Notes under the pieces: model-generated
Databases searched by the model: none
Told to the model about the DNA's origin: nothing
The model's input: the letters and a program-made list of their open reading frames with translations, nothing else
Shown: in pieces, positions 60 to 60,352 of the stretch
How the letters are laid out: each line of letters opens with the position of its first letter
How positions within the stretch are numbered: the first letter of the stretch is position 1
Assembly (NCBI GenBank): GCA_022496805.1
Contig: CM040103.1
Span: 9,132,001 to 9,196,000, forward strand
Origin: Pohlia nutans
Taxonomy: Eukaryota > Streptophyta > Bryopsida > Bryales > Mniaceae
Reading direction: 5' to 3'
DNA length: 64,000 nt
Made by a program: the position numbers and the translations under genes

Positions 60-269
60 CCCCTAAAGAACCATAAGGCCACCAGGTGGCTCCTGTTTTT
101 TTTCAGTATTTTTTATATAGATTCTTCTCTGTTTCTTTTTTAGTTTTTATTTATTCAACATATGTAACATTCTTCACTAATTCCAGTGATACAAAATTTG
201 GTCCCATCCAAATTATAATCGTTTAAACTTGCCATTTTAAGACCATGAATCCTTGGGTCCTTTTAGGGG
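60..269. mobile_element. TTAA-flanked CCCC-ended element (family B-like)
   Basis: The ends are CCCCTAAAG on the left and CTTTTAGGGG on the right, flanked by TTAA (56-59) and TTGA (270-273). The right end, read in reverse, continues with the same GGACC-AAGGATTCATGG block found at the left end of the copies near 39950 and 42355. The left interior does not obviously match those copies. There is no coding capacity. It abuts the 3' end of the ORF at 263-625 and supplies that ORF's stop codon. Confidence 0.6.
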
Positions 270-625
270 TTGAAAGACAGAGACAGAGACAGACCTAGGG
301 GTTCTTCTTTTTCGTCTTCGTCATCGGCGAGAAACGATTGCCGAAGCTCGTCGTCCTCGTCGTCAGGGAACAGGAATCCCAGCGTGAAGGAATTCTTCAA
401 CGGGCGACCGATGCTGGTCTCCAAGGAGCTTCGCCATGACTGCTTCGACTCGCACTTGGGCGACTGATTTCCAGGCGGCTGTGAGTAGGAGTTTCCTTTG
501 GGCATGCTGCTGGAGCGCGAGTATTTGCTTCCATTGTTATTCTGGGGAACTTGGCTGAAGATGTTACTCTCCGTGAAGGCCACTCGTAATTTGCGTCCCG
601 AGGGCGACCTGAAATCGTCGTCCAT
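263..625 (-). CDS. Small unrecognised ORF ending in a transposon end
   Basis: This is a 120-codon ORF from an ATG in a good context (GCCATGG). I do not recognise the protein. It begins MDDDFRSPSGRKLRVAF, has a Ser/Asn/Gln-rich middle (about residues 30-70) and a strongly acidic Asp/Glu stretch (about 88-107), and ends in an LSLSLSF repeat made by a (GTCTCT)n-like run. The last codons, Asn-Pro-stop, lie in the terminal sequence of the TTAA element at 60-269, so the present C-terminus is transposon-derived. Without the element and one TTAA copy, the frame would stop a few codons later. It may be a real small gene, the first exon of a larger gene whose other exons are left of the window, or a fragment. 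Confidence 0.45.
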   Translation of the reverse strand: MDDDFRSPSGRKLRVAFTESNIFSQVPQNNNGSKYSRSSSMPKGNSYSQPPGNQSPKCESKQSWRSSLETSIGRPLKNSFTLGFLFPDDEDDELRQSFLADDEDEKEEPLGLSLSLSFNP

Positions 626-699
626 GGCTCACCAGATTCTCATGCTTCTTTCATTTGCCTTCAAACTACACACAGGCAAAAGGAGCATCAATAAATAAA

Positions 700-1260
700 T
701 TGTTACGCAACAGATTTTCGTACTCAAACACCTCCTCTTGTGCAATGTAAGCTTCTTTCGTTGTTCTCTTCAAACAACAAGAAAAAGAAAAAAGAAAATA
801 AGGGTACATAAATAATTAACTAAATTGCGCAACACCCCAACACCCAAATGCAACTCAAACTTCCGCAACAAACACCTCCTCTTGTGCAATGAAAGCTTCT
901 TTCATTGTTCTCTTCAAATAACAAAACCAGATTCTCATTCCAAATGCCGCTTGTGCAATGAAAGCTTTCTGTCATTTGTCTTCAAACAACAAAAGAAATG
1001 GCGCAACAGTTTAAACCCAAACATCTTCTTTCATTTGTCTTCACACTACACAAAAAGATATATAAATAAACAATTAATTAAACAAATTACGCAACACCCC
1101 AACACCCAAACTCTCATCTCAAATGCAACGCAACGCCGCAACGAACACCTCTCTTCAAAAAGCAAAAGAAATTGCGCAAATGCGGCGCAACGCCCCCGCT
1201 TGTGCAATGAAAGCGTTCTGTCATTTGTCTTCCAAAACAAAACAAATTGCGCGACAGTTT
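700..1260. repeat. Locally repeated leader/intergenic segment
   Basis: A block built on CTTGTGCAATGAAAGCTTCT, followed by a TTTGTCTTCAAACAACA-like stretch, recurs at about 736, 874, 949 and 1195. Partial copies are at about 645 and 1020. Between them are variants of GCGCAACACCCCAACACCC. The copies are imperfect and spaced 75 to 250 bp apart, so this is a decayed local duplication and not a clean satellite. It lies directly upstream of the minus-strand ORF at 263-625. The GC-richer stretch 1270-1700 behind it is open on the minus strand but has no ATG, and may be promoter or leader. Confidence 0.5.
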
Positions 1261-1740
1261 AAGCCCAAAATTACGACTGAGAATTGACGATGAATTGCGT
1301 ACCGAGAGTTGGTGAGGTGAGGTTCGTTGAGTGGCTGGTTGAATGGCGTCCGTGCGCAAACAAGCTGGGAATATGCAATCGGAGCAAGATGCGGTTCGGA
1401 ATTGGGTTTGAGAGGAATTGATGAAGGTGGTGATGGTGGCGTGATTGGAGTTGGAATGGAATCGAAGCTCACTGCAGTGGAGTGAGCTTGGATTGTTGCG
1501 CGGCGACGGACGGACGGACTGGTTGCTGCAGTGAGGGAGGATCCGTATTCTGCGATTGGGTCGTATTCTACGTATGTCGTATCGTATTGTAGTATTCTAC
1601 GCTGTGGGTGAATTTCGATGTATTGGATTGGCTTTTGTTGGCTCCCGCAATTCACGCTCACAATCGCGAGGCTATCATCTTTCTGGACTCCTCTCACAAA
1701 TTGAAATCGAGCAATTCTGCCATCATCTTTTAATCTTTAA

Positions 1741-1965
1741 CTCCTAAATGTCTGAAAGCGCCTTTGCGGCCAGTAGAATATGGTGTACTTTTCTAGTATT
1801 TGGAATGGTTCTACACCTTTGATGGATTTGAGTTCAACAATGAAGCTGAAATTTTGATCAATGCGGTTCTAGTGAGCTATTGAGATTCCAATTTAGAGCT
1901 TCTTGTTGGTAGCAAATGCCAATTATACGGCCACATATCTACTATCCCCATGGGACGTTTAGGGG
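1741..1965 (+). mobile_element. TTAA element, family A, copy A1
   Basis: This 225-bp element has ends CTCCTAAATGTC and GGGACGTTTAGGGG, with TTAA on both sides (1737-1740 and 1966-1969). The interior matches copies A2 and A3 (ATGTC...GCCTTTGCGGC, then TGGAATGGTTC). It lies in opposite orientation to A2, and the two share the central TTAA. It is non-coding. Confidence 0.8.
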
Positions 1966-1969
1966 TTAA

Positions 1970-2194
1970 CCCCTAAACGTTGCATGGGGATAGTAGATAC
2001 GTTTTCAGGTAATTGGTATTTACTACCAACAAGAAGTTCTAAATCAGGATCTCAATAGCTCACTAGAATCGCATTGATCTAATTTTTAGCTTCTTTGTTG
2101 AACTCAAACTCATTAAAGGTGTGGAACCATTCCAAATACAAGAAATATATGTTGTATTCAACTTGCCGCAAAGGCATTTTTAGACATTTAGGGG
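1970..2194 (-). mobile_element. TTAA element, family A, copy A2
   Basis: This 225-bp element has ends CCCCTAAACGTTGCATGGGG and GACATTTAGGGG, flanked by TTAA (1966-1969 and 2195-2198). It has the same length as A1 and A3 and is inverted relative to A1. The junction with A1 is a near-perfect palindrome centred on the shared TTAA, as expected if one copy inserted into the target duplication of the other. Confidence 0.8.
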
Positions 2195-2198
2195 TTAA

Positions 2199-3757: not shown

Positions 3758-3972
3758 ATGATTTTACACAAATTTTTTGTCATTACACATCAATAAACCT
3801 CAATTGAGGAGTTTTATTTTGAAAAATTAAATATCATGTGTGACTTACGTCACTAACCTAAAAAATAGAGGTTAGTGACGTTAGTAACACATGATAATTA
3901 ATTTTTCAAAATAAAACTCTTTGATTGAGGCTCATTGACGTGTAATGACCAATTTTTTTTTTGTAAAATCAT
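3758..3972. repeat. Foldback (long hairpin) element
   Basis: Nearly the whole 215 bp is an inverted repeat. The left arm runs ATGATTTTAC...CATTACAC...GTCACTAACCT and the right arm AGGTTAGTGAC...GTGTAATG...GTAAAATCAT, with a centre of about 10 bp near 3860. The arms are about 90 to 95 percent paired by eye. This is typical of a MITE-like foldback element. It is non-coding. Confidence 0.75.
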
Positions 3973-4376
3973 CCTACTGTTCAAAATGTTTATTTTATGC
4001 TTATTTTTGGTGTAAACGTAACTAATATATATTAATGTATATACTAATGTAAACAAATCCGTCGGCAATATGTTAGTCTCGGTTGATCCCCGCCGACCTA
4101 GCCCGACTACACTGAGCGCATCGACGCAACTCGAGCCCACTGACCTGATTTTCCCCCATCCCGTCATGATCTCGTCATTAGACCCTTTTTTCAAAAAAAA
4201 TTATGCTTCATCACAACATCGGGGCAACCTTGACCCACCATTCTATCCAAATGCAAGAAACCAATTGGTTTGTATGATTTTCAAAAAAACCGTTTAAAGT
4301 CACTCACTTTGTTTTCTCAATGTCAGTTTATTGCATTGCTATATGGAAGTAACCAATTATGGTATTTCTACCTTAA

Positions 4377-5312
4377 CCCCTAAGCGCTCAAACGACCATT
4401 TTCTGGTCGCTGCCCGGAAAAAACGGGCTGCCCGAAACAAAAAAATATTTTTTTGAAAAAATAAAAAATATTTTAAAATACTACATCAAGTCTACTTTCC
4501 AACCCAATTTGAATTATGGCAATCCGAGTTAAACTCCACCCGGGAGAATTTTTCAAAGTAGATCACCTCAACATTGTCTTAGTGTTACAAAATTTGCTAT
4601 TTGGGGAAAGTAATGATGATTCCTCCATCGTTTCTCTTGCTTTTTTGAAGTTTACGACATATAGCCCAACTTTAACCAATCGTACTAAGGGCCGGTTTAC
4701 ACTACGGTGGAGAAGGCCTCCGGTCGGTCAAGAATGCTTGGCCAAGACATGGTTATATGAGGCAAATGGTGGATGTGCCGGAGAAGAATGAAAGGCAATA
4801 AAATATTTTTAATCACTTGGGCTTCTCCGGAGGAGGAGTTTCTTCTTCGGCCTCAAGAGGCCGGACAAGAAACTCCTCCGGAGAAGCCCAAGTCCAAAAA
4901 GTGCTGCCATGTAGGCGGCCATGTCATTTTATCATCCATGAGAAATCTTCACCACCATTCTTGTCTTCATCTAGTGTAAACACCTTCCGGTGAAGAGTTG
5001 CAATTTCGGCCAATCACAGTTTAGAATCGCCCTTTTTTTCATGACCGGTGGACTTCTCCACCGTAGTCTAAACCGGCCCTAAATTTTGAACTCTAAAATT
5101 GAAAATTATAATTTATACAAATTTTCAAAGGTTAATGCTTTTAAATTCATTAAAAAATGATTTAAAGATTATTTTGGAATTTTGACCATACGGATAATTT
5201 GTAAAGGTGATACTCTACATTTTGTCTATTGAACCAACCTTCATCAAACATATGGAAGGCACATATTATAACACATCTATGTTTTGTCCAATACCCCTCG
5301 GGCTTTTAGGGG
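4377..5312 (-). mobile_element. TTAA element, family C, copy C1, with nested MITE
   Basis: The ends are CCCCTAAGCGCTC and GCTTTTAGGGG, flanked by TTAA (4373-4376 and 5313-5316). It is reverse in orientation to C2 and C3 at 33412-34508. Removing the nested 391-bp MITE (4689-5079) and one TAA leaves about 542 bp, matching the 544-bp C3. A small hairpin, GACCATTTTCTGGTC, lies just inside the left end and recurs in C2. Confidence 0.82.
4689..5079. mobile_element. Tourist-like (PIF/Harbinger) MITE nested in C1
   Basis: The inverted ends are GGGCCGGTTTA and TAAACCGGCCC, continuing as ACTACGGTGGAG / CTCCACCGTAGT, flanked by the direct repeat TAA (4686-4688 and 5080-5082). A GGGCC start with a TAA/TTA target duplication is characteristic of Tourist/Harbinger elements. 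The homologous uninterrupted site in C3 reads GTTAAATTTT, which supports the insertion. A second, perfect inverted repeat (CTTGGGCTTCTCCGGAGGAG and its complement, 4816-4892) sits in the middle. Confidence 0.85.
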
Positions 5313-5316
5313 TTAA

Positions 5317-15679: not shown

Positions 15680-15787
15680 TAACTATGGTCCACAACAAAT
15701 AAATTTGAACAAAAGAAAGTCTACAATGGACCTATTCAAAACAGCTATATAAAATGAGACCAATCTTGCTTCTTGGTTCTTTAAGGG
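15680..15787 (+). mobile_element. Partial TTAA element, family B
   Basis: The right part of the family B consensus (AAATTTGAAC..AAAGAAAGTC, ACCTATTCAAAAC, GGTTCTTTAAGGG) is present and is followed by TTAA (15788-15791). The left end is missing or too decayed to place. Confidence 0.55.
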
Positions 15788-15840
15788 TTAACCTTTAAGT
15801 AAGCATCCACACTAAAGATGTTCGGTTAAAGCTCTTTAAT

Positions 15841-17248: not shown

Positions 17249-17287
17249 ATTCCATCACTGGTTTCCAGCAGTGCACTTTTTTTTTAA

Positions 17288-18146
17288 ACCCTGTCCCAAT
17301 TTAACACTGCTTCAGTTCGAAGATGCGTTATGATATATTTTATGAATAATAAAAAATGGAGTTGATGTACAAATTTAAGTTGTAAATAGAGTTAACTGAA
17401 AAGAAGGCCATGGAACCTCCCTTTCCAACCTCCTTCTAATCTCTCTTTTGAGCTCTATTTGGGTTAAATAGTGTCGTGTCATAACTTGTCCCCTTGTGGG
17501 CCATGGGCTTGGAGCTTTGGTAGGAGGTGTGGAAGTTATTGCGAGGTGTGGAGAATAATGACAGTGGCTTGCTTTAGATTGTCTCCCAACTCATCATGAA
17601 CTAGTTTTCGGTCTATTTATATATTTCAATATGAGTTCAAGAGGAGTTCAAAAGGAGTTTGCTAAAACTCTTCTCTTTGAGGTGACTTTTCGGTAAACTC
17701 TAATGTCAACGTGAAGATCACATATGTACGGTTGGATTGATTCATTTTATTCGTAATTCATAATTAATTTTTTCTAAATTTTCTTTTGAAATTCAATGAA
17801 AAATCTCAAATTAACCAAAAACAATAATTAAAATTTATTGTAATGCATTTGGAATGACCTGCACTAGGAGATGGTATGATTTCCATTACTTTATTTTACT
17901 TATTTTGGAAAACTATGTTTAAAGTCTCACTTTTTGAACTAAGAATGAAACTTCATATAAACTAATTTTTCTATTTTTAAAAATCACAATATCTTATTTT
18001 GAAGATACATACTGACATATGATAGTCAACTAGCACAAGTACCAAGAGAAATTTGGATGGATGAAACTACCCATGTTTGTAGTAGAGATAAATAATCTAA
18101 ATCTGTTCATCGTCCTCCATGTGAACGTACGAGACACGTCAAAGGA
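17288..18146 (-). mobile_element. TTAA element, family D, copy D4, with nested element
   Basis: The ends are ACCCTGTCCCAATT and CACGTCAAAGGA with flanking TTAA (17284-17287 and 18147-18150). The interior matches D1 and D2 in reverse, including GGAGTTGATGTACAAA, TACGGTTGGATT and ATAGTCAACTAGCACAAG. Removing the nested piece (17389-17700) leaves about 545 bp, close to the 535-542 bp of D1 and D2. It is the most diverged copy. Confidence 0.72.
17389..17700. mobile_element. Element nested in D4 (GAGTTWACYGAAAAG ends)
   Basis: The inverted ends are GAGTTAACTGAAAAG and CTTTTCGGTAAACTC, flanked by TA on both sides. It interrupts the family D homology of D4, which resumes directly after it. The same left end (TAGAGTTAACTGAAAAG) recurs at about 53925, so it is a repeated family. 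The superfamily is uncertain. Confidence 0.6.
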
Positions 18147-18995: not shown

Positions 18996-21981
18996 TTACC
19001 CTTCAACACCTTCATGATTCGGTACAACAGCATCCATAGAATCAACTTTGAGGATGCCGTTGGCAGGAAGACTCTCTTTCTCCAAGAGATTGAAAGATCC
19101 ACAAACAGTTGGCTGGACAACAGTGGAGTTAGAAGCTCCCTCAAAAGCTGCCTTCAAGCATTCTGCCTTCACTTGTTCGAAACGCTCAAGGGGGAGTGAA
19201 ACCTCAGCCAAGAGTTTCCACGCATAGTCCTCCGTTGCAAGGTCGTAATCCTTCCGTCGCTTGAGCACGATGTGGCCACTGATTTCCCACACAGCAGGGT
19301 TCACCTGCGTCTCTAGAATCTCTTGATCCACCTCGCCTCGGGCCTGCCTCTCAGCAAAGCACTGTGGAAGGACGAAGACTCTAGAGCCTCTATCAGTGAT
19401 GAGCACGTTGTAAGGGATGTTCTCGTTTTGAAGATAGACGCAGGCGTTGGCAACGGCGACAGAGAGATCCTCGATGCTGTTGCACATCTCGAAGACAAGA
19501 CCCCTGACTGGAAACTTGCTGAGCTCGTACACTTTCACGCCACCTTTCTTCCTGCCGTAAGGTACTCTCGTCGTGGGTGCTCTCTCAATGGGGAAGGGAG
19601 CAGCAAGATAGTACGCCTGCATGATCAAAAACTCTTAGTTAGAACCATAAGGCACGGAACTGATTTCGGATTGTGTGGCTGTAGACGAGCCTCGACATGC
19701 TTCACCTTTAAAGGACCAAAGATTCATGGTTTTAAAATGAAAAATTCAATTGATCATATTGGGAAAATTATGATTCAAATAAGACCGGATTTTATATCAC
19801 TAGAACAAAGCATGTGTTGATCAAAAGACATAGAAATTTGAATAAAAAGAAGTCTACATAGGACCTATTCCAAACTGCTATGAGAATCATGAAGCCCAAT
19901 TTGGGCGTCTTTGTCCTTTAGGAGTTAACTTTCGTGACAGGAAATTACTAGTCATTTTGATCATCAGCGGTTCAGATAGAGAAACTCCAGCAGTCGAATT
20001 ACCTGAAAGTGCAAATGGTTGATTGTGGCGAATGCACCCAGGCTGTTGTATCCCAAGCGGAAGTACGGGTTGTTTGCCTCGGCAGCCATGTGCAGAGCTA
20101 ATAGGAATGAATCTTGATCAATTCGTTGCGGCAAGCGATCCAACACGCGAGGAACCAGCAGGACGTGTCCATATTCGATCGGACTAACCTGTAAGTGTCC
20201 TTAAATGTCAAAAAAGGGAAAGAAATGCAACACTGGAACTGCAGGTATGGTCGAAATCCACAACCACGAACAGAGGATGCGATTATGCATAAACCTCTTC
20301 ATACGTATATTAAAATCAAAGTGTGTATCCCAAAATAAAGACATATGCTTAGTAGTATTTCACGCAAGGAAGAGCTCAGGAATTTAGGCGAATCAGAACT
20401 TACATTAATGGCAACCACGTTGGGGCTGCTTAGCACTGGAGCTTTCTCGTAGTATTCGCTTATATCATCTTCGCTCGGTCCAAACTGGAACAGGACTTCC
20501 TCTTGACCAACTTTTGTAAAATTAAACTTCTTCGGATCGAAAGGCTGGAGGACCTGGTCAACTCGGAATTCCGTCGGCCGCTTCTGCAAATGTCTGCCCT
20601 CATTCAGCTGTGCAATGAAACCGTATTCCCCAGGAAGCATCTGCAGCAAGAGGCAAACTATTGTTCAACTTTCATTCACGAGTCCCTTCGTGTGTAAAAC
20701 AAGCGCAGCAGTCTGTAAAGAAATTTAATTCACTGGCATAATGTCCTAGCCAGATGTACGTGCATGAGATCTTCCATATTGAAGCCATCTTTGATATACT
20801 AGACCAATTTCATCGATAAACTCTCATGACAACTACAAAACCATTACAGAAAAAATAAATCCTAGAATACCGGAAAATCTCTGCACCACGTCTTCAACCA
20901 CGACGTAAAAAGTAAAAAGAATTCGATTATTGGAATGACTTGTGATGTATTTTAATTTGTTTCAAACACAAACGAATGACATAAGATGTAGAAGTGGTCA
21001 TACCTTAGTCTCACAAGCTGTCACGTCATAACGGAAAAGCCCCCGGACCATACGATCTTCCCACTGTTCAAGAGAGATGCAGATTTAGAAACCATATCAC
21101 CAGTCAAGCTGCAAAAAAATACGGAGAGTACAAAAAAATGGGTACAAAGCATAAACATTTATACATTGGGGATGGGACAGTTCCCATATGGCAAATAGGT
21201 AATTTTCCCCAGATGGCCAATTCCCAGATGAACCTTTTCTGTACATTTACAATCGCCCATTTACCCAATCTACATGTACAATTGCCCATTTGCCATGTAG
21301 AGACGGTCCAGAAACCCCTGTTCACCGTCAACGAGTCATACCTGTGCGAGGAGCAGTTCATCTAGGAAATAACTCTCTTTTTGGGAATCATCCGTCCCGT
21401 AGTCAATAGAATCTCCAATATCACCCGGTACACAGTGGTCGTCACTACCAATGTGCGCCCTTTTGTTGGAGCCCTGAGTTCGCTTAATACCGAATGTGTA
21501 TAGCGGCAACTTAGCTCCTGTAGATGAATCATTCAATTCAATCAAGACATTGGTTTCCAGCAATTCAACACATGAACATCACCCTGGAAGAGGAAGGACA
21601 TAACCCCCAGCTTATCACCGACACCACAAGGAACCCTGACCATATTACCAAGCACTATTTGGTACAAGAATGATGGTATATTCTTGGTAATCACTTGCTA
21701 AATTGAACAAACACTTGCAAAACTTGCTATAAACAGCAGTTTGGCAGTAATGTTTACTTCCCCGTGAATTAGACAAGATTTCCTGTGCACTTCCGTGTGC
21801 GAATGAGAACAGCCTACACATACAGCTTCATTTCGGGGATGTCGTGACAAGTACGAGGAAAAGAAAAGATTTACTAACCAGGAATGCAACAGTTGCCGAG
21901 GCAATCTCGACCGCAGCCAGGTGCTTGCTCCAGCTGCTGGTGCATGGAAACCATTGTCTCCACCCTCTTGATGGTCAACAT
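18996..21981 (-). CDS. VTC2: GDP-L-galactose phosphorylase (ascorbate synthesis)
   Basis: This enzyme converts GDP-L-galactose and phosphate to L-galactose-1-phosphate and GDP, the committed step of the plant ascorbate pathway. It acts in the cytosol. Six exons join in frame: 21981-21879, 21517-21342, 21063-21004, 20640-20404, 20188-20003, 19616-18996, giving 460 residues; relatives have about 440. Exon 1 starts MLTIKRVETMVS and ends GCGRDCLGNCCIPG, both family hallmarks. Later landmarks are WEDRMVRGLFRYDVTACETK, GEYGFIAQLNEGRHLQKRPTE, QPFDPKKFNFTKVGQEE, SPIEYGHVLLVPRVLDRLPQ, the histidine triad HLHFQ (catalytic), and LETQVNPAVWEISGHIVLKR. VTC2 and VTC5 cannot be told apart from this sequence. 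Intron 5 carries a TTAA element. The GC-rich leader upstream holds a candidate regulatory upstream ORF. Confidence 0.94.
19705..19924 (+). mobile_element. TTAA element, family B, copy B2, in VTC2 intron 5
   Basis: It contains the family B blocks AAAGGACCAAAGATTCATGG at the left and TTTGTCCTTTAGGAG followed by TTAA (19925-19928) at the right. The left terminus is decayed (CACCTTTAAAGG). It lies in the intron before the last coding exon, about 90 bp from the acceptor of that exon. Confidence 0.65.
21120..21310. other. Insert-like segment in VTC2 intron 2
   Basis: This part of the intron contains several variants of the phrase GCCCATTTGCC / GGCAAATAGG / CCCAGATGG on both strands. It looks like a small decayed inverted-repeat insertion. 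No clear ends can be defined. Confidence 0.3.
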
Positions 21982-26050: not shown

Positions 26051-26059
26051 TACATCTTT

Positions 26060-30562: not shown

Positions 30563-31104
30563 CCCTTTAGCGCGCCGGCGTCCAGATTCTGGACGCCGGA
30601 TGAATTTCAGCAGCTCGATTTCTGTAGGTACCGGATGTTTTTCATCCATTTTTTAATTTTTTTTCATTCTTGTGCTAGTTGAATACCATTTGTACGGTAT
30701 GGATCTTCCAAATAAGATAATGTGAATTTTTGAAAAATTACAAAAGTGATTAATGTCAAGTTTCAATCTTAGTTCAAAACGAAAGACCTTAAATATGATT
30801 TTCTATAATAAGTAGAATCAAATAATGGAAACCATACCATCTCGTAGTGCATGTCAATCTAATTTCATTACAATATTTAAAAAAAAAATTGTGTTAATTT
30901 TGGATTTTTAATTGAATTTCAAGAGAAAACCTTGCAAAATTACTTTAAAAATATTAATAATAAATATGATGAATCCAACCGTACAGATGTTATCTACACA
31001 TTGACATTTACAACTTTGTTTTGTACATCAACTCCATTTTCGTTTTTCATCAACCATTTTATAACAAATCTTTGAAAACAATGTTGAATCGGGACGTTAA
31101 AGGG
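30563..31104 (+). mobile_element. TTAA element, family D, copy D1
   Basis: This 542-bp element has ends CCCTTTAGCGCGCC and GGGACGTTAAAGGG, flanked by TTAA (30559-30562 and 31105-31108). A 21-bp palindrome, GGCGTCCAGA-T-TCTGGACGCC, sits 14 bp inside the left end only. The interior is closely similar to D2 (TTTGTACGGTATGGATCTTC, AATATTAATAATAAATATG). It is non-coding. Confidence 0.85.
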
Positions 31105-31204
31105 TTAATTTTGTCTATTCATTATCAAACTAAGTCTTTAAAAATAAAAATAAATAAAAAATAAAGTGTGGAATGCAATATAGACTTTTAGGGATTGAAG
31201 TTAA

Positions 31205-31429
31205 CCCCTAAATGTCCCATGGAGATAGTATATACGCTGTCGTATAATTGGGATTTGTTATCAACAAGAAACTCTAAATTAGAATCTCAGTAGCTCACTG
31301 GAACTGTATTGATCTAAATTCCAACTTCTACTTTGAACTCAAATCCATTAAAAGTGTGCATTCATTCCAAATACAACCAAAATACAACGTATTCTACTGA
31401 CCGCAAAGGCACGTTCAGACATTTAGGGG
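31205..31429 (-). mobile_element. TTAA element, family A, copy A3
   Basis: This 225-bp element has ends CCCCTAAATGTCCCATGG and CAGACATTTAGGGG, flanked by TTAA (31201-31204 and 31430-31433). It has exactly the length of A1 and A2 and the same orientation as A2. Confidence 0.85.
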
Positions 31430-31504
31430 TTAAAATTCTTGATGGTAAACATGCTACTATACTTTAACTTTACAATCCTTTTTGAAGTCTTTACCGAAGC
31501 TTTT

Positions 31505-33322: not shown

Positions 33323-33411
33323 ATTTAAAAAAAAAGTTATTTTATTATGAGAAAATGCCCGCCAAAGTTTGCTGAGTTGTTTTTTGTTTTAATTGTGAAT
33401 GATTAAGTTAA

Positions 33412-34508
33412 CCCCTAAAAGACAAAGGGGGTAAGGGCAAAACCTAGATGTGTTATAAAATGTTACTTCGGTAACTTCAATAAAGTTTGGTCCACAAGAG
33501 AAAATGAGAAGCATGATGTTTAGTAATTATCCGTGCGGTCGAAGCTCCACAAATAGTTTTAGATGCTCATTTAATGAATTTAACCCCTAAAAGCTCAAGG
33601 GGTGTTGGACAAAACATAGATGTGTTATAATATATGTGCCTTCTATATGTTTGATAAAGTTTGGTTCAATAGACAAAATGTAGGGCATCATTTCTACAAA
33701 TTATTTGTATAGTCGAACTTCCAAAAATAACTTTATTTCGTTTTTTAATGAATTTAAAAGCATTATTCTTCAATTTTTTAATAAATTCTAATTTTCACAT
33801 TTAGACTTTAAAATTTAACGTGATTGGTAAAATTTGGTTTGTCTATTGTAAACTTCAAAAAAGTAAAAGAAATGATAGAGGGAACATCATTACTTTCCCC
33901 AAATAGAAAATTTTGTAACACTAAGACAATGTTGAAGTGATTCACTTTGAAAAATTCTTCCAGGTGGAGTTAAACTCGGATTGACATAATTCAAATTGAG
34001 TTGGAAAGTAGACTTGATGAAGTATTTAAAATTATTTTTTTATTTTTTCAAAAACTTATTTTTTGGTTTTGGGCAGCCCGTTAAAAATGAGCAGCGACCA
34101 AAAAAAGTTTTTTTGGGAGCTTAGGGGTTAAGTGCAATTACCATTTAAAATTCACCAAAATCACAATTTTTATTTTTAGCATTTGAAATTTGGTATGATT
34201 GGTTAAAACTAAACATTTTATTCTAAAATTTAAAATGGCAATTTTTTTGAATGAGTGAACATCATTAGTTTCCCAAAATAGTAAGTTTTATAACACTAGG
34301 AGTCTAGGATAATATTGAGGTCTTTGTCTTTGAAAATTCTTTAGCAAACGTCAATATTGCAAACAAAATGTATTCAAAAGCACTAAAACATGATCTCGAC
34401 CTCCAATTTAAACGAAGAATGAAAACTTGTAAAATATCATTTTCTGCCCATGGGCAATCACTGCTGTATGGGCTGCGACCAGAAAATGGTTGATCGGTCA
34501 TTTAGGGA
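33412..34508 (+). mobile_element. TTAA element, family C, copy C2, split by C3
   Basis: The left end CCCCTAAAAGAC follows TTAA (33408-33411); the right end TCATTTAGGGA precedes TTAA (34509-34512). The two parts, 33412-33583 and 34132-34508, add up to 549 bp, the family length. Between them sits another copy of the same family in the same orientation. The right end has the GACCAGAAAATGGT hairpin also seen at the end of C1. Confidence 0.85.
33584..34127 (+). mobile_element. TTAA element, family C, copy C3, nested in C2
   Basis: This 544-bp element has ends CCCCTAAAAGCTC and GGGAGCTTAGGGG, with TTAA at 33580-33583 and 34128-34131. It is inserted into C2 at a point where C3 itself shows the uninterrupted sequence (AATGAATTTAAAAGC). 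The outer copy thus has TTAA duplicated around the insertion. Confidence 0.88.
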
Positions 34509-36998: not shown

Positions 36999-37002
36999 TT
37001 AA

Positions 37003-37537
37003 CCCTTTAACGTGCGAGCGTCCATATTCTGGACGCTGGATGATTTTTGTCGTGTCCCTTCACCACATACAGTGATGTTTTTCATCCATCCAAAATTTTC
37101 TTGATTCTTGTGCTAGTTGACTACCATTTGTACGGTATGGATCTTCAATATAAGATAATGTGATTTTCTTTTAAATTACAAAAGTGGTTTATGTCAAGTT
37201 TCAATTTTAGTTCAAAAAGTGAGACTTTAAACATGATTTTCCATAATAAGTAGAATCAAATAATGGAAACAATACCATGTTGTGCATGTTATTCCGATTT
37301 CATTACAATATTTAAAAAAAAACTGTGTTAATTTTGGATTTTTAATTGAATTTAAAGAGAAAACCTTACAAATTTAATTTACAATATTAATAATAAATAT
37401 GATGAATCCAACCGTAGAGATGTTATCTTCACATTGGCATTTACAACTTTGCTTTGTACATTATCTCCATTTTTGCTTTTCATCAACCATATTATAACGA
37501 ATCTTTGAAAACAATGTTGAATTGGGACGTTAAAGGG
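37003..37537 (+). mobile_element. TTAA element, family D, copy D2
   Basis: This 535-bp element has ends CCCTTTAACGTGCG and GGGACGTTAAAGGG, with TTAA at 36999-37002 and 37538-37541. The left subterminal hairpin GCGTCCATATTCTGGACGC matches D1. Similarity to D1 runs over the whole length in the same orientation. Confidence 0.87.
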
Positions 37538-37639
37538 TTAAATCTAAAGATTTATGTGCTGCAATTTTTTATCATTGAAAATCAACGTTCCATGAAGATT
37601 GAAATGCTTAAACTGACAGCAACTGTACCCGTAAGCATC

Positions 37640-39349: not shown

Positions 39350-39353
39350 TTAA

Positions 39354-39538
39354 TCCCTAAAGAATCAAGGATTCACAGTTTTATAATGACAAATTCAATT
39401 GATCGTATTGTGAAAAATACCATTCAAATGGGACCAAATTTTATATCACCGGCCAAAAAAGAAAGAAATTTGAACATGAGGAAATCCATTTAGGACCCAC
39501 TCAAAACTGTTAAAATAAACATAGAGTTGCTTGGTCTT
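39354..39538 (+). mobile_element. TTAA element, family B, copy B4 (decayed)
   Basis: TTAA (39350-39353) is followed by TCCCTAAAGAATCAAGGATTC. The right end, GGTCTTTTAAG, is worn. The interior matches B3 and B5 (AAATTCAATTGATC, GGGACCAAATTTTATATC, CTCAAAACTG). Confidence 0.7.
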
Positions 39539-39585: not shown

Positions 39586-42500
39586 TCAAAGTCCAACTTT
39601 TCGCACGGGGATGTGCTTCAAATAGTGGTTAAAAATGAAAGTGCTCAACATGAGACCACCCCAGCTGATCATCGCGGAAGCTCCGGATAGTTCCACTTGC
39701 AAAGAAGCATCAGTCTTGTAATTACAGCAAAGCAAAATCGAATATACGCTGGGAATGACGAGTTGAGTGATCACAATCCATAGCACAGGTCTGCAATTGC
39801 ACAGATGATAAATTTTTATTAATTACCTGGTTTTAAAGGATGAAAAGAAAAAAGAAAAAAGAAAAAAGAAAATCAACAATAGTTTCTTGAGCTTGGAATA
39901 GAGCGAGGAGAAGATTATATCATGCATGCAAATGCATACCTCCGTAGATTAACCCCAAAGGACCAAGGATTCATGGTTTTAAATTGATAAATTCAATCGA
40001 TCATATTGTGTAAAATATAATTCACATGACACTAAATTTTATATCACTGGAATCACTGAAGAACACGTGCATATGTTGATAAGAAAAAAAAAAGTCAAAT
40101 TTGACAAAAGAAAGTCCACATAGAACCTACTCAAAACTGCTTAAAAAAACACGAGGTCCAATTTGAACTTCTTGATCCTTTAGGAGTTGAGGTAAACCAC
40201 CCTATTTGTGCCACTTTGAGATCATTATTCTCATCATTATTAGTGCCTTACGTTGAAAATTTTGATATGTACATATAGGGTGACGTGTGAATTGTGCCAC
40301 AAATATGGTGGCTTACCTTAATGCCTTTTGTTTCTTATTACTAAGGAGCCTACAATCGTGACCTACAATACTTAATACCTAGGTAATCAACTATTGCGGT
40401 TGTATTAAGATGTTGAGACGTACTCCCTCTGTGCGCAAATAACTGTCCTATTTCAGTGAATGTCAAATTGAACATTCTACCATGAATTATTTTTTAAATA
40501 AGAGCCACAAACTTCTGAGAGAGGTAACATTATCAACATGAAGGTAACATAATCTCGATGCAACCTCTTTTTGCTATTGTATCAAGATACCATTGGAGAG
40601 GGATTAGAAACTGATAATGCTAGTGAACATTAACTTCTTAGCAAGTAGCATTCATAGGAAGAACGGGAGGCCCTTACCCCCAGGTAGCCTGGAGGGCAAT
40701 GTAGAAATACCCCCCCCCCCCCCCCTCCCACCTACTTGTTTAGAAAGTTTGGGGGGGGGGGGTATTCTACATTGCCCTCCAGGCTACCCCGGGGGTAAGG
40801 GCCTCCCGTTCTTCTTGTGATTAACTCTTCATCAAGAAGCAAGCCTAACTCATTGTTTGGACTGTACAGACATGTATGCTCAACTTCACTTTTTCTTTGT
40901 TTTTTTGTTCAACTACCACATTGATTCTTAAATCCAAGGGCTCAAAATGGGCTTGTATTGAGATTATGTCCGGTAATTCAAAAGCAGGAAAGACTATGGG
41001 AGACAATCGCAGACCACTATCTCCCTTGCCACTGCCGTGACTTGGTAACTTGGTAGGTCCTGACCTGCAGTTATATCCCATAGTCTTGCCTGCTTTTGAA
41101 TTAGCCAGCCCTTTTCAAGTACTGAGACAACCTTGTGTTTTACCAAAATAGTTTTCAAAAAATAGGACAATTATTTCAAGACAGTTATTTCCCAAGAAGG
41201 GTTATCATTTGAATGAAGGTTGACCTGAGCGACGAAATTGTAAGCTTACTGTATGATGGCCGGGTGCTTTACAATATCCAAAAGTGTAGACTTCAGCTCT
41301 TCCAACCGTTTTTTGTTGAACTTTCTCTGCGGCCATTGGGAAGCTTCTGGATGTCCAGCAATTGCCTGAGCTTGGGCATTAGACTGCTTTGTAAGACTTT
41401 CAATCTCGTCCATCTTCCAAGAGTAACAAGAATATGATTAGTGACAGACCCGTAATTAAACAACCCTGGATTATCAAGGTAATTAGTGCACCATCACAGA
41501 GTAGAATCGGTACGGTGAAGGTTCAGAGAGCAGAACGCACTGAAGAAAACACTAGTAAAAAAGGTGCATATGTCGAGGCAAATGGGCAGCACTTGTCTAG
41601 AACTAGGCAACATTGCCTCTGCACAAGCATCGTAACGAAACATGTATATGCTTGATGTCATGATCTATATGATTGTTTACGCAAAATAAGGAACTCTTTT
41701 TTGTGACCCAACATTGTAACACTGCTAAGAACAAGTGTTCAGCAACCTCACATTGGTGAAGCCACTTGAAAGAGTGGTGTACCCTACACATACTTTGTCA
41801 TGTTCAAGTTTCTAACAGCAATTGAGTCACTCTCTTATCAACTATTCAAAAGGGAGTTAGAAACCATAACTCCTCTCCTCTTTCTTGTCACTTTTTGATT
41901 GGTTCTGACATCTAAATAAGTTGACGTGGTAAGACAAAAAGATGACATCGTTTCTCAAGAGTGCCACAACTTGCTATCAACTTAAGATATCTAAATGTTG
42001 TATATTGAAGCTTGAACCTAACATTATGTCGCCGGTCGCGGGTTTCGTGGTCCATTTCTAGATAATCCAACACTACCAATATATCATCTCTAACCATGGG
42101 AGATTACCTCAAGCTCTTCCATAAGGTCATTTACATCAGAGGTGAAAATTTCTTGGACATCTTCCTCTAAATCGGGGCTATAATTCGTTTCTAAAACAAT
42201 TTCATGATTCTCAATTCCGTGTTGTCCTATCTGAATCCAGTCTTCATCATCATGAATACGTTGTTTGTTTTCTTTAAGGACCTGTTCTCGTACTCCTGCA
42301 ATTGTTTTGCCTCAATAACACGATTTCATCGGTGACAAAATACTTTAGAGTTAACCCCTAAAGGACCAAGGATTCATGGTTTACAATACAATTTGAATCA
42401 ATCATGTTGTAATGCATACGATTCAAATGGGACCAAATACATATGATCATTGGAATCAATGAAGAACATTACATGTGTTGATTTAAAAAAAAGCAAATAA

Positions 42501-44865
42501 ATTTGAACACAAGGAAGTCCTACTCAAAACTGCTAAAAGAAACATGGGCTCAATTTGGGCTTCTTCATTCGTAAGGGGTTAATGTGGCATACCCTCATCA
42601 TGGTCAATGTTCCGAGGCAACCTTACAATTGCAATTCCACCTGAGAATTGTCGTTCTTTGACAAATACCTGCAACATATTAATTGTATCCAAATAGTCGT
42701 CCTCTTCACTAAAACTGTTCAGCATACCAAAGTAGTCTACATCAATAGGAGGTTCTTCAACACTTAGTACTTCCCTTTGATCATCATAGTTGCCTTCATC
42801 AATAGCTTTGGTCACTTGACATATTGTCTTCTCGCCAAGAGATCCACATTCAAATTGTTGCAAAATTGGGAAAATCGCTAAAAGGAGAAAAACTCCTTCT
42901 ATATTGAAATTTGCTAAACCTAGTCCAAGTCCATTGCATAAGCTACCAAGAATACCACCAAGTGCTATGGCAAACCAAGAGATTGGTCGCAAATCTTGCG
43001 CGGGATTGATCCTGGCCATCCAAGCTCACAAATTTTAAACATAAGGGCTCCTAGTCATTACATACAAATGAGGCCTGGGCATAACAATTTTTAGACTCAA
43101 AGTGTGCTTAGACTTGATGATTCGATAACTCAAACGAATAAATTATCATTTCCTAGTTGCCAAAGGGTGCACTCTACATTTTTTTTGAAAATCACATGTC
43201 TTCATAACCCCCTCTAAAATCCTCTATGTACGAGGGGATATATGTTTAAAAACCTTTGTATATAGATCTATTCCGTCCTAGAAATACATGTTTGATGTAA
43301 GTATATGTCAATATTTTCAGTTCTAAAATAAGTTTATTGTATGTATACATCATACAGCAGTGTTCAAATTAATACCTCTTTTATGTACTCACGTACACTT
43401 GTACATGTTTAGTACAGTGCACTCCCATAGTTGATTCCAAAAGACTCCCCACTTACATTGCTTAATATACTATTATGTGATTCGAGTTCCAGATTGAGGA
43501 AACTCGTGATGAAATAAATTTCAAAGAAATTACTTTTTAAAATTTATTTTTTAAATATCCCAAATAGTATTTGAACCATAAAACTGCAACGACAAGAGAA
43601 AACCTATTTGTTTCTGATGCTTCTGCAACCGTGACATCCACCACGTCGGTGGCGCTGATATGTTGAGTAGTGAGAAGCACCACCAAATAAATGAAGGATG
43701 CTCCTGAAGGGGTCTGTGCGAGCGCAACCCATGGGAGGAAGTACAAAATACTCGAAACAACCAAGTATGCGAGATGTATCTTGCCTCTGTTTTGTTCTGA
43801 CACAATTATACTACAAAACACACCAATAAATCTTGTTAAAGAGCATCTAAAAATATTATTCCAAAAACCGTAAACTGGGGTGGTTTTGTATTAAAGTTTA
43901 GGACCATAGCATTCTTCAGTGGTGAAAGTATCACCTCTAGTGACTTTTTCAACATATGCAGATTTCTAAACTTTATTACTATATTATAGTACCATAGCAC
44001 GGTCGCCACTCTGCAAACGGATATTAATTATTTTTGAAAAATAAGGTTTGTCTGCTAAAAATAGAATATATTGGTTTTTGTTTTTGAGCAAAAAATGATT
44101 GTAAATGCCCAAAATGGTTGAGAAACAATAAAATATAGATATAAATAATTTATTCTATTTGTTTCTTTATCCTTTAAAATTTTGGTTTTTTTACGTTTTT
44201 TTTTAAATCATTTTTTGGCAAACTTGCTATCATGGTACTTCTGTGTATTGGAGATATGACTTGAGTGGTGAAGAAAATAATTATACTAAGTATAACTATC
44301 CTACGAGAATCTATGAGTATTTAAGTGATACCGTACGTGGAAGGCAGGGTTGACAAAAAATGATTCCCCAAAAAAATGTCGAAAAAATAAATAAATATAT
44401 TAATTTTTTATAAAAAAAAGCCAAAATAAAATAAAATAAAAACATAACACCCAACAAAAATCGTAGACAAAAAAAATGAAATAAAACGTTTAGTTGCTGG
44501 AAAAATTCGTATGTTATCTATTAATAGCTGATTTCTTAATAATTACTTTTTAAAGTGCCGACCATCATTGTTTCAACTTTTATTAATTATTCGACATAAA
44601 AGCGCTGACCCTGCCTTCCATGTATGGTATCTAAGCATGTGTAGGGATGCAAAAAGCTACCATGAAGAATGTTATAACATTGTAATTATGCGATTTGTTG
44701 ACAAGTAAAAAAAATATACTATATAGAAATGTAGACAACCCAATTGTACCCGAAAAGAGGTTTGACACTCCAAGGAAAGAAGGTTGTTGAGATTAAAACT
44801 TGATAAAGCCGTAATGTCTCGTTCACCTCATAAGATATTCCCATCCATGCAAAGGAGCGCAAGCT
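39586..44865 (-). CDS. Folate-biopterin transporter family protein, C-terminally truncated
   Basis: This belongs to the BT1/FBT family of the major facilitator superfamily, pteridine or folate carriers of plastid or plasma membranes. Exons, in frame: 44865-44750 (RSFAWMGISYEV, FFPWSVKPLFG), 43810-43604, 43011-42593, 42295-42108, 41413-41250, 39790-39586. Hydrophobic segments include VVSSILYFLPWVALA and WFAIALGGILGSL; MISWGGLMLSTFIFNHYLKHIPVRK matches the family's eighth segment. The central cytosolic loop is unusually long (about 200 residues), acidic and spread over three exons. The frame stops at VRKVGL, where relatives continue for about four more segments, and I find no later exons. An upstream exon ending VMFNGR at about 44970-45000 with a GTAAGT donor is likely. 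Either a truncated gene or a pseudogene. Confidence 0.72.
39953..40186 (+). mobile_element. TTAA element, family B, copy B3
   Basis: TTAA (39949-39952) then CCCCAAAGGACCAAGGATTC; right end GATCCTTTAGGAG followed by TTGA. The 234-bp non-coding element lies in the last intron of the FBT-family gene. Confidence 0.78.
40659..40813. repeat. Near-perfect 155-bp hairpin with long G/C tracts
   Basis: Arms of about 65 bp (AAGAACGGGAGGCCCTTACC... / ...GGTAAGGGCCTCCCGTTCTT) are almost identical and end in a run of about 17 C and a run of about 13 G around a short loop. The high arm identity suggests recent origin. It lies in an intron of the FBT-family gene. The proline/glycine-rich ORF running across it is an artefact. 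Confidence 0.75.
40976..41102. repeat. Small foldback
   Basis: ATTCAAAAGCAGGAAAGACT pairs with AGTCTTGCCTGCTTTTGAAT around about 75 bp. It is flanked by no clear target duplication and lies in the same intron as the 40659 hairpin. Confidence 0.55.
42355..42578 (+). mobile_element. TTAA element, family B, copy B5, next to a splice donor
   Basis: TTAA (42351-42354) then CCCCTAAAGGACCAAGG; right end CATTCGTAAGGGG then TTAA (42579-42582). The intron of the FBT-family gene begins GTATGCCACATTAACCCC on the minus strand, so the element starts about ten bases past the 5' splice site. Confidence 0.82.
43988..44240. mobile_element. MITE, family G, copy G1
   Basis: The ends are AGTACCATAGCA and TGCTATCATGGTACT. 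The interior is AT-rich with AAAATAAGGTTTG and TTTTTACGTTTTT blocks shared with the copies at 46013 and 48804. It is non-coding. Confidence 0.65.
44331..44627 (-). mobile_element. TA-flanked MITE, family H, copy H2
   Basis: The ends are CCGTACGTGGAAGGCAGGGT and ACCCTGCCTTCCATGTATGG, flanked by TA. It is inverted relative to H1 and shares the inner AGTGCCGACC, ATTATTCGACAT and TTTTGTCTAC blocks. Confidence 0.72.
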
Positions 44866-48800: not shown

Positions 48801-48803
48801 TAT

Positions 48804-52906: not shown

Positions 52907-53924
52907 AACTGAAAGCTTAACCTGCTGAGCAGGGTTGTTGAAAGTGTCAGTGTAATTTAGTTGGTGCTTCGTATTCGATTCACTTTTCAAGCATTCGTTA
53001 AAGGCATTCTTTTCTGGATCCAGAAAAGTGTCTGGATTCAATGGTATGCTTTGGGCATGTAACAGTATGTCACATCAAGTGAAGAAAAAGGAGTGCAAAT
53101 TGGCGCTCTGCTCTTTGCAATGTTTGCTACTCCTGCTCACATTGTGAAACTATCTGCTCCGTTGGAGGTACTGTGGTGGCACAGTCAGGTACATCACTCT
53201 TGGATTATATTTTACTCCTAATGGGCCTAAATGGGTTGATGGATATTTTCAAACTTTTGTTATTCACAATTAAAAAATGTTCTTCAGTGTGATCTTTTTT
53301 AGGAAGTGGCTCAACAAGATCATTTTACTTTGCAATGGTTGAATCTAAAATTACCAAAATGTATGTCAAATTTTGACTTTGTTGACTTTCAGACCAAAAG
53401 TGACATTCAAAAAGTGAATTTGTACATAAATTTTTTAAGTAATTATTATATCCATTTCAACAAAGTTCGCTCAAAACTTATTAACAACTTTTGAATAGAT
53501 TTTAAAAATTAAGTTTCAAAATTTATATTAAAATATCGGTTATAGCAATGGTAGATTTAACTACACAAATATAGTTTAAAATTCAAAATCTTCAACTTTT
53601 GTTTGTATGTCAATCCCAAAATATTCTTTCATATTGTATTTTATGATGAATCATTGCAAACTTTCAAAAATGAAGAGACATTGAATGTCCTTTAGAGTTA
53701 ATGACATGCTTCAAGGAAGGAGTGTGCACATTCTAAGGATTTATACATTTTGAATCTATAAAGCTTATATGTTGAATTTTAAATTTATTTTATTACAGTT
53801 CAAATGGGATTTGAGCACAGACAATAAGTATTAAACATATGTTTGTTTTATTATTTCTATTTTTATTTCTCATCGCAATATAGATCCTTGTAATTCATAA
53901 GTGAATGACAATGTTCTTCGTATT
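52907..53924. other. 3' flank of STAY-GREEN gene, then AT-rich DNA
   Basis: The first few hundred bases probably include the 3' untranslated region; no polyadenylation site could be fixed. The rest is AT-rich without recognisable genes. Confidence 0.35.
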
Positions 53925-56238: not shown

Positions 56239-56239
56239 A

Positions 56240-57280: not shown

Positions 57281-58939
57281 GGAGAAATGTGCTACATCTT
57301 TCTAGAAGAATGCTTCAAAAAAATTCCTCTTCCACAACTTCTTTTTTTCACTTGTTTTTTCACTTAATGTTTAAGTTTTTTGTTGGTTGTGTCCTCTCAA
57401 CAGAGACTATGGCATTGACTTCAGTTTCTCCTACTCAACTTGAAAGTCAATTCTCCTATCTACAACCCTTTTCACACATTCATGAACTCATCAAAGAAGG
57501 TTTTTCATATGTTGACGTGGTCAATTTCATCATAGTGAGCATGTCCCCCGAAAACCCTTAATTAGTTACGCCACAGCGGAATAGCCGCATAGTCGTGTGC
57601 GAGGTCGCCATAGCGTAGGAGTTTGTGCTCGAGAACTTTGCCTTACAAGATGCAACTCATGACGCCCAGCGATGACAATTCCAAGTTCTTTGCGCATTTG
57701 AAATATGATTAGCTCGAGATCGTGGAGTGGACATGAATTTTATAAATTGGATAGGGCTATGGTAAGCGGCAGCAATAAAGGTGAGCGTCGATTATAATTC
57801 CTTTTTATTTTGTTCTTTTTTATGAGAGAAGGATCTGTTGGAGTTGAATTTGTCGATTGAAATTTTCAGCAAAAATTCTCGACATAAATTTTTAAAATGT
57901 TCCGTACTTTTTTCCTTACAAGGAACATAATGCAACAAAAAGAACTGTGTACTGGCTCAATCATGCTCACATAAATAGTAGCTTCGTGTATGTGGTCTTG
58001 AGAAATTGCCTATTTAAACTCGGTTCAATTTGTCACTAGAACATGAATTCTAGAATTCCGTGAAGGGTATCAAGTAACGCCTACTTGACACGTGGATACT
58101 TACACGACAATGGGTGGTCAATTTCTTAATCTTGGACTCCAACCTATAGAAGATTTTAACTATAGTTTGTGTACATTGTGGTGCAGAACTCAAAGCTAAA
58201 GTCATGCTTATGTACGTTGTGGGTTTTCCAATTTCGTAATTGCTGAAAAATAATTCACATCTTTGGCCAAGTTTTATAAATCTACGTAACAGTCATGTTC
58301 AAAATTTCGTTTTACAACTTGGTTGAAAATATCCAAAGGTATTGAAAGAGTTTTCAAGCTTTGGTTCATATGTCACCTAGAGTGCAGGTTATAATATAAG
58401 TATCCTTGTCTCTCTATGTGACTATTTGAGGTAGAGGAAACTATTTGCTTAGAATTGTGATTCTCAAAAGATTGTGCCTACAAACGCGGAGTCAGTGGCT
58501 ACTACCATTTGTCAAAGGTGCAAATCAAGAGGAGATAAACAATCCACACAATTGAAAATTGTTCTCATAGTTGTTTGATTGTATTTTGCTAAGCTTGATA
58601 TCACCTCATACTTAATGACGATAGCTTGTTATTTTGAATTTTCATTTAGATACAATTCAATTTGGAGAGTATTTCATTACTTAGTGGATCATATGAACGT
58701 CTTTTACGTCTTAATTGAGTTATGGTTCAAGATACTTTTCTCACCCAGTTTTCTCAAACTAACTCTTTTATGTTGAACATTTGCAAGTATATTTGTACAT
58801 TTGTACAATTTGTGGAAAAAAAATTATTTTGAAGATTCATAAATTGGGCATCTATCAAAGCCAATTTATCAGGCTCCATTATGATTCTAATTTTACAAAA
58901 AAAGATGATCTAATGAAAAGTTTGCAGCTCTTCAAAGTC
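57281..58939. other. Intergenic DNA, no gene supported
   Basis: The frame 57220-57561 starts in the minisatellite and runs into AT-rich sequence; no motif is visible. Nothing else recognised. Confidence 0.4.
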
Positions 58940-58943
58940 TTAA

Positions 58944-60297
58944 CACCTTGACGTCGAAGTCCACCACCGATTTCAAAGATGTGTTCTAAAATGTTTGATG
59001 AATCACAAAAATGTAGATATGCCAAAAAATAATAATAAATAAATAAATAAAATAGTGTAAATCTCAATTTGTAGATCACATCCGTACGGTTAGATACATC
59101 AAAAAGTTATTCATAGTTTTTAAATAATTTTGCAAGGTTACCTTTAGAAATTCACTTAAAAGTCCCAAATTAACAAAAAATTATTAAAATTATATACAAC
59201 AAATTTGGAATAAGGTGCACTATGTGATGGTACAATTTTCATTATTTGAATCTACTTATTTAGAAAATCACTATTAAAGTCCCACTTTAACCCCTAAACG
59301 CCCTCACCTTCTCGAGATTTGGAGAATTTCATAAATGTCTTACACAATGTAACTAAGAACAATATTTTGAACTTGATGTATGAGTAAAAGTTGTATATTA
59401 TGAATTTTTGATTCTATCCATACGGTTAGATTTACGATTGTTGTCACCAATATTTTGTATAAAATCTGAAACTTAAAATTCAAAATCATTTTGTAAATTT
59501 ATTACAAATAAAATATTTATAACTTGTACATGAAATTTGTTGTGATTGGTTGAAATGTAATACTCTAAGTGTTGTGATTTTGAGATTTTGTGGTTGCTTG
59601 ATTTTTTGAGGTGGCTTCTTTAACCCCTAAACGTTCTCACCCTTTTTGGATTTGGCAATTTTCCAAATATGCATTATAAATGCAACTAAGAGGAATATTT
59701 TCAACTTGATGAACGAATAAAAGTTGTACATTGTGAATTTTAGATTCTATCCATACAATTAGATTTTTGATTTCTATCACCAATATTTGTGTATAAATTT
59801 TCATATTTGAAATTTAGAGCTCTTTTTGTAATATGATTACAAATAAGATATTGACAGGCTAATAATGGAATTTGTTGGGATGGGTTGAAATGTAATACTC
59901 TAAGTGTAGTGTTTTTTGGAGATTTTTTGGTTGCTTAATTTTAGTAGGTGAATTTTTCAAGAGCACTTTTAGACAAAATCTTTGAAATTTTGGGTGGAAC
60001 ACTACAAAGTTTGATTTTGAACATCATTCACTCTCTGGATGGTTGAACCTTTAGGGGTTAAACTAAGAATGAAACTTGACATAAACAAGTTTTTCATTTA
60101 AAAAGAAATCAAAATATCTTATTCTGAAAATCCATACCGTACAAATGGAAGTCAACTTGTACATATGGTAGTCAACTAGCGCAAAAACAAAGGAAAATTT
60201 GAATGGATGAAATATTATGTGGGATGTAGTCAAAAGATGGCTTACAATGTTTTCATCGTCTATTATATGGAGTATGGACGTTGGCACGCAAAGGGTT
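58944..60297 (-). mobile_element. TTAA element, family D, copy D3, split by family F insertion
   Basis: The left end ACCTTGACGTCGAAGTC follows TTAA (58940-58943); the right end GGCACGCAAAGGGT precedes TTAA (60298-60301). Interior blocks (ATCCGTACGGTTAGAT, GGTAGTCAACTAGCGCAA, GAATGGATGAAA) match D1, D2 and D4. Family D sequence stops at 59290 and resumes at 60062, with family F DNA between two TTAA copies. Confidence 0.75.
59291..60057 (+). mobile_element. TTAA elements, family F: truncated F1 joined to complete F2
   Basis: F2 (59624-60057, 434 bp) has ends CCCCTAAACGTTCTCACC and AACCTTTAGGGG with TTAA on both sides (59620-59623, 60058-60061). F1 (59291-59619) repeats the first 330 bp of F2 (CCCCTAAACGCCCTCACC, AACTAAGAACAATATTTT, TTGGTTGAAATGTAATACTC) and then stops at the TTAA of F2. 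The whole block sits inside family D copy D3. Confidence 0.78.
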
Positions 60298-60352
60298 TAA
60301 TGTGCAAGAATAGGTTTAGCTACCCTATATATCGGGAATGCTAGGATGTGAG

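Follow-up and report, generated by a model that had tools for sequence, protein, structure and literature searches.

The piggyBac element is a widely used transposon for gene delivery in animals, and elements of its type are, to our knowledge, familiar from animals and little reported from land plants. In Daphnia, the piggyBac element Pokey is, according to published extracts, accompanied by the miniature inverted-repeat transposable elements (MITEs) mPok1 and mPok2. Plants harbor MITEs of the Tourist (PIF/Harbinger) and Stowaway (Tc1/mariner) types, which are likewise short, non-coding and present in high copy number. Here, we analyzed a 64,000-nt stretch of the genome of the Antarctic moss Pohlia nutans (Bryales, Mniaceae; contig CM040103.1, positions 9,132,001-9,196,000), hereafter called the window, and interpret its short TTAA-flanked repeats as non-autonomous, MITE-like piggyBac elements, which would be moved by several related transposase subfamilies at TTAA (probability roughly 0.96). 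These repeats differ in their ends from Tourist and Stowaway elements, and duplicate TTAA rather than the TAA/TTA or TA given for the latter in the available part of one source (PMC10004981). Unlike Pokey, with which the likeness is drawn by description, and unlike the members of the piggyBac superfamily used as references below (piggyBac, 6x67; piggyBat, 9c0f), they have a moss as host.

A preliminary description of the window, made from its letters alone, had placed these elements in a plant genome and assigned them to piggyBac. The plant is a moss, and the assignment is supported by TTAA duplication at paralogous empty sites and by DDE_Tnp_1_7 transposase genes in elements with such ends. 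As far as the extracts of the respective sources go, the repeat table of C-fern lists 1230 piggyBac entries amounting to 0.00%, and that of Stipa a single 75-bp piggyBac element. Against such rarity in plants, one review, as excerpted, counts PiggyBac among seven angiosperm MITE superfamilies, another places it among plant DNA transposon superfamilies, and an abstract states that piggyBac has been isolated from insects, fungi and plants. In its main text, the paper on the Pohlia nutans genome makes no use of the word piggyBac; it attributes 23.68% of the genome to DNA transposons (PMC9247546), a share of which these elements may be part. Our literature search, whose coverage excluded most subscription journals, recognized no paper on piggyBac in mosses.

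Ends and families in the window

The two strands of the window together hold 15 instances of the end TTAACCCCTAA[AG], i.e. TTAA followed by CCCCTAA[AG], compared with a mean of 0.08 and a maximum of 1 in 60 dinucleotide shuffles. A second type, TTAACCCTTTA[AG] (TTAA followed by CCCTTTA[AG]), occurs four times, with a mean and a maximum of 0 in as many shuffles, so that the window holds 19 exact ends versus about 0.1 expected. TTAA precedes 15 of the 18 CCCCTAA[AG] sites (two have TCAA or TGAA, one has neither) and four of the six CCCTTTA[AG] sites. Comparison of the window with itself yielded five families with differing interiors: A (233 bp, three copies), B (~232 bp, six copies or pieces), C (552 bp, three copies), D (543-550 bp, four copies, two of them old) and F (442 bp; one full copy, one partial copy and one weak relative), all lengths being counted with both TTAA. 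In full copies, the outer 8-12 bases are common and return inverted at the opposite end, and further inward the two ends of one element diverge. The ends start with CCC and finish with GGG, as the piggyBac superfamily requires. The community of TTAA-flanked, CCC...GGG-ended elements reported in the preliminary description is thus borne out, and its estimate of about sixteen copies was fair: we tallied 17 intervals, covering 7129 of the 64,000 bases. Since ~700 of these bases belong to unrelated inserts (4689-5079, ~17388-17701), the elements make up about one tenth of the window.

The end TTTAGGG had also been noted for its resemblance to the plant telomere unit. Because TTTAGGGG-TTAA is not the same as TTTAGGG repeats, and because D terminates with TTAAAGGG, this resemblance would seem to be due to chance, and our data lend no support to a function.

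A subterminal palindrome, GTCCA-n-TGGAC or GACCA-n-TGGTC, recurs in D, C and two transposase-bearing elements, ~20-40 bases inward from one of their ends (window 36999-37058, 30559-30618 and 4373-4432; left ends of L019+L029 and L020+L030, where L numbers denote genomic loci).

Genomic copies and target-site duplication

Genome-wide searches covered the assembly of 697,796,988 bases in 332 contigs. A first look gave 5839 candidates for D, 2880 for A and 1305 for the transposase, loose numbers that are not to be equated with copy numbers. Among those for D, 40 were scored, including the window copy, and the others match it at 89-92% over nearly the whole length. For A, 40 were scored plus one partial copy, again including that of the window, with 90-97% identity over nearly the whole length. 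Median pairwise distances within the copies picked were 0.09 for A and 0.08 for D, values that are biased low by the picking. With their 233-552 bp, their lack of coding sequence and their many copies, the repeats have the properties of MITEs; ends of transposase-bearing elements were demonstrated for D and F only.

To tabulate target duplications, as the preliminary description had suggested, 20 of the 40 scored D rows and 20 of the 41 scored A rows were taken from the best-scoring ones. TTAA is present in D on the left in 19 copies, on the right in 19 and on both sides in 18 (L051 has GTAA on the left, L035 has no right TTAA), and in A in 20, 19 and 19 copies, respectively (L070 reads TGAA). 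We passed over two A rows in which the match failed to reach an end by 1-3 bases, which would lower the A figure from 19/20 to 19/22 at worst. Altogether, 37 of 40 copies carry TTAA on both sides, a duplication beyond TTAA is not consistent, and the outer T varies no more than the inner bases do.

Five nested insertions provide paralogous empty sites. The pair of F copies within an old D copy is flanked by CACT-TTAA on the left and TTAA-ACTAAG on the right, where other D copies read CACTTTTTGAACTAAG or nearly so; one four-base word has been added. The C copy at 33580-34131 interrupts an older one; when the two parts of this host are joined, they can be aligned through TTTAATGAAT-TTAA with two C copies in which TTAA stands a single time at this point. 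A D copy at L020+L030 is split into positions 1-232 and 229-543 by a transposase-bearing element of 9134 bp, which leaves the TTAA of D (229-232) on both sides. In L068, an A copy occupies the same D position, giving AAAAAGTGAGACC-TTAA-[A]-TTAA-ACATGATTTTCC compared with AAAAAGTGAGACT-TTAA-ACATGATTTTCC in the D copy of the window. L029 has an insert at this position as well, clean on the right side and eroded on the left. The D copies of the window are the empty site for the insertions in L020+L030 and L068, which means that exactly TTAA was duplicated.

These sites also bear on the idea that the repeats are PIF/Harbinger (TWA) or Tc1/mariner (TA) MITEs, in which part of the TTAA would be the element's own. 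Elements of this kind are present in the genome, as a PIF/Harbinger-like MITE with a TAA duplication at 4689-5079 of the window indicates. However, the empty sites contain a single TTAA, the outer T is constant, and the transposase-bearing element L024 has CTAA on both sides, which implies that the four bases come from the target, provided that its ends, placed from one copy, are right. Neither a 3-bp TWA nor a TA duplication, the signatures that the preliminary description had set against its own assignment, was seen at the empty sites or at L024. We therefore rejected these two superfamilies, to which we give practically no chance.

Two observations concern the choice of sites. The TTAA at D positions 229-232 (window 37227-37230) was hit in at least two and probably three D copies, namely by the 9.1-kb element of L020, the A copy of L068 and the insert of L029. 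Moreover, A copies share a TTAA with another piggyBac-like end at 8 of 39 TTAA sides (flanks of L056, L059, L064, L067, L071, L073 and L074; window 1966-1969), versus 27 of 1032 TTAA sides across the window and 1 of 38 in the D copies. New insertions may be drawn to the ends of elements.

Transposase-bearing elements

A genome search with the Pfam profile DDE_Tnp_1_7 (PF13843) led to 116 scored candidates with E values of 1.6e-81 to 3.1e-74; the matches listed are all above the cut-off, and many are without an internal stop. We took 20 of these loci with their flanks for analysis. The transposase core of L018 matches the solved structures of piggyBac transposase (6x67, E 3.4e-33) and piggyBat (9c0f, E 5.9e-25), and its alignment to 6x67 retains the IDE, DN-FTS and GVD blocks, which we take to hold the catalytic residues of this DDD transposase. 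By eye, a cysteine-rich C-terminal tail of the CxxC...CxxC... type is recognizable in 19 of the 20 loci (the exception being L028), and zinc-finger models gave no match at the Pfam cut-off in the four transposases scanned.

Ten transposase-bearing elements were measured. They are 4.5-9.1 kb long and have ends like those of the window families, so that the longer, DDE_Tnp_1_7-encoding relatives anticipated in the preliminary description do exist; relatives with a non-piggyBac transposase, which would have spoken for another assignment, were not seen among them. For comparison, “a well-defined PB transposon” is put at ~2.5 kb in the available extract of one paper (PMC10813416). These longer elements include recent copies: the closest pair, L009/L017, is 99.4% identical over 5.0 kb from TTAA to TTAA. 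Homology ends within one base of TTAA on both sides in this pair as well as in L013/L025 (97.7%), L013/L016 (89.5%) and L012/L027.

Ratios of nonsynonymous to synonymous substitution rates (dN/dS) over the transposase domain were 0.07 for L012/L027, 0.10 for L013/L016, 0.11 for L009/L022 and 0.14 for L018/L026. In these four diverged pairs, such values indicate constraint, while near-identical pairs are uninformative.

In a FastTree tree of the 20 loci with 55 of 94 database homologues (those of at least 400 residues), we tentatively read at least five subfamilies among the 20 loci. They are mixed with homologues without names and stand apart from four named animal ones. The 94 homologues were those of the L018 core, and the four with organism names are all from animals (Petrolisthes, Rotaria, Hydra and Carabus); since only these four bear names, the lack of a plant among them carries little weight. 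Closest to the query is a homologue of 421 residues from a metagenome source, with 75% identity across 81% of the query.

Links between families and transposases

D matches both ends of the 8509-bp element L019+L029, with 83% identity over 48 bp, a stretch which includes the palindrome GTCCA-n-TGGAC, and 96% over 24 bp. F matches both ends of the L020+L030 element, with 96% identity over 25 bp and 77% over 44 bp. D thus probably belongs to the L019 type and F to the L014/L020/L023 type, as judged from these end sequences.

The preliminary description had suggested one transposase for all families. That a single enzyme moves all five would agree with the first 8-12 terminal bases, which are common to the families and the transposase-bearing elements. 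We nevertheless consider it unlikely, because the longer matches that D and F show at both ends lead to different transposase-bearing elements and at least five transposase subfamilies were read in the tree; several related transposases are the likelier source of mobility. Kolobok and Sola3 also duplicate TTAA, and either superfamily could be envisaged as the mover of the repeats; for A, B and C, the 20 loci offer no element that matches at both ends. However, the D- and F-ended elements encode DDE_Tnp_1_7, and we rate this alternative as very improbable; no search was aimed at Kolobok or Sola3.

Several points weigh against our interpretation of the repeats as piggyBac MITEs served by several transposase subfamilies. 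The empty sites are all paralogous and come from one assembly, and that of the F pair in D is less clean, as its joined flanks differ from other D copies by two bases and a substitution. A convincing both-end match to a transposase-bearing element was not found for A, B or C among the 20 loci: A has 15-22 terminal bases in common with several loci, a length that rises to as much as 25 (at 84%) with two of them; B, compared by eye, agrees with one end of L024 in 19 of 20 bases; and C reaches 75-78% over 40 bases with one end each of L018 and L021. The 44-bp match of F has a close competitor at 75%, which is another end within that stretch. In L010/L011, L018/L026 and L014/L020/L023, the end of homology was placed at TTAA on the right side only; the boundaries of L019+L029 and L024 rest on the ends alone, with no second copy, and the L024 element was found by allowing mismatches. 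Ratios of dN/dS were higher in L010/L011 (0.28), L013/L025 (0.45) and L014/L020 (0.55), the value of 1.4 for L009/L017 stems from few changes, L014/L023 gave none owing to zero synonymous change, and 0.055 was obtained for the saturated pair L018/L021. Finally, DDE_Tnp_1_7 was absent from 14 control genomes, which says little, as their identity is unstated.

In the scheme we propose, piggyBac transposases encoded by the 4.5-9.1 kb elements elsewhere in the genome would recognize the common terminal CCCCTAA or CCCTTTA together with nearby sequence. An element would be cut out and put in at a TTAA, which would be duplicated, and different MITE families would probably be served by different transposase subfamilies. 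From what the sequences suggest, these transposases may be active now, or may formerly have been, acting in trans on the MITEs, and A, B and C probably form part of the same piggyBac system.

An upstream domain of the transposase loci

Sixteen of the 20 transposase loci (L018:2987-3313, L012, L013, L020, L028 and 11 more) contain a reading frame 1.1-4.1 kb upstream on the same strand, with a conserved domain of ~100 residues that we list as a difference from the piggyBac superfamily; it was not found in L009, L017, L022 and L024. The commonest form of its motif is RFLWHHHAA..LGWK.RR.EG. At E 0.1, Pfam gave no match for any of the four pieces tested. With a profile built on five pieces, one 65-residue relative was retrieved from 5.8 billion proteins; this search considers only proteins of similar length, and copies fused to a transposase would therefore escape it. 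The AlphaFold2 model, for which five sequences were used, is all helix (predicted local distance difference test, pLDDT, 83; predicted template modeling score, pTM, 0.76); against the PDB, it gave no match with an E value below 2.8.

Other features of the window

The elements are collected in Table 1, including nesting that the preliminary description overlooked: the TTAA common to the first two A copies, the F pair in an old D copy, the C copy in an older one and the insert in C at 4373-5316. This insert (4689-5079) has GGGCCGGTTTA ends and a TAA duplication, and presumably belongs to PIF/Harbinger. The ~314-bp insert in an old D copy (~17388-17701) has inverted ends AGAGTTWACYGAAAAG and, by eye, an apparent AAT duplication.

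Table 1. Positions of the piggyBac-like repeats in the 64,000-nt window
Feature	Position	Strand	Basis
Family A copy 1, 233 bp including the TTAA at either end	1737..1969	-	self-comparison
Family A copy 2, facing copy 1 head to head, common TTAA 1966-1969	1966..2198	+	self-comparison
Family A copy 3; query for genome-wide A search	31201..31433	+	self-comparison
Family B full copy, TTAA at both ends	42351..42582	+	self-comparison
Family B, near full length, right TTAA decayed	39949..40188	+	self-comparison
Family B decayed copy	19701..19928	+	self-comparison
Family B partial	39350..39521	+	self-comparison
Family B-like, diverged	56..279	-	self-comparison
Family B right-end piece	15693..15791	+	self-comparison
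Older family C copy, left part; resumes 34132 to ~34345	33408..33583	+	self-comparison
Family C full copy, 552 bp, at a TTAA of older C copy	33580..34131	+	self-comparison
Family C full copy, split by PIF/Harbinger-like element 4689-5079	4373..5316	-	self-comparison
Family D full copy, 550 bp; empty site for nested insertions	30559..31108	+	self-comparison
Family D full copy, 543 bp; query for genome-wide D search; empty site	36999..37541	+	self-comparison
Old family D copy, unrelated insert ~17388-17701; outer ends approximate	17283..18080	-	self-comparison
Old family D copy containing F pair; right end approximate	58940..60212	-	self-comparison
Family F copy 1, restricted to the left portion, which runs to a TTAA	59287..59623	+	self-comparison
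Family F copy 2, full, 442 bp	59620..60061	+	self-comparison
Weak relative of family F, without recognizable ends	53498..53690	-	self-comparison

A gene for a QUA3-type methyltransferase lies on the minus strand of the window; its protein is 84% identical to that of Ceratodon purpureus, 73% to that of Physcomitrium patens and 75% to another database protein. An open frame at 25982-26788 contains a DUF4218 domain, which we take to be associated with CACTA-type elements. At 56183-57331, a 27-bp (81-bp) tandem repeat forms two arrays with open frames, and a tandem array of ~151-bp units lies near the right end (62197-63743). Rfam and tRNA scans of the window gave no matches, and neither did a search of viral contigs with the end pattern of family A.

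Conclusion

It is conceivable, at somewhat less than even odds, that mosses possess a long-standing clade of large piggyBac elements of their own, in which the all-helical upstream domain could represent a first exon or a separate first open reading frame (ORF1) with a role in transposition. Some of its lineages might be young enough for activity and might have seeded thousands of MITEs. A moss with near-identical transposase-bearing copies in open frame and thousands of MITE candidates would offer plant biology native piggyBac systems.

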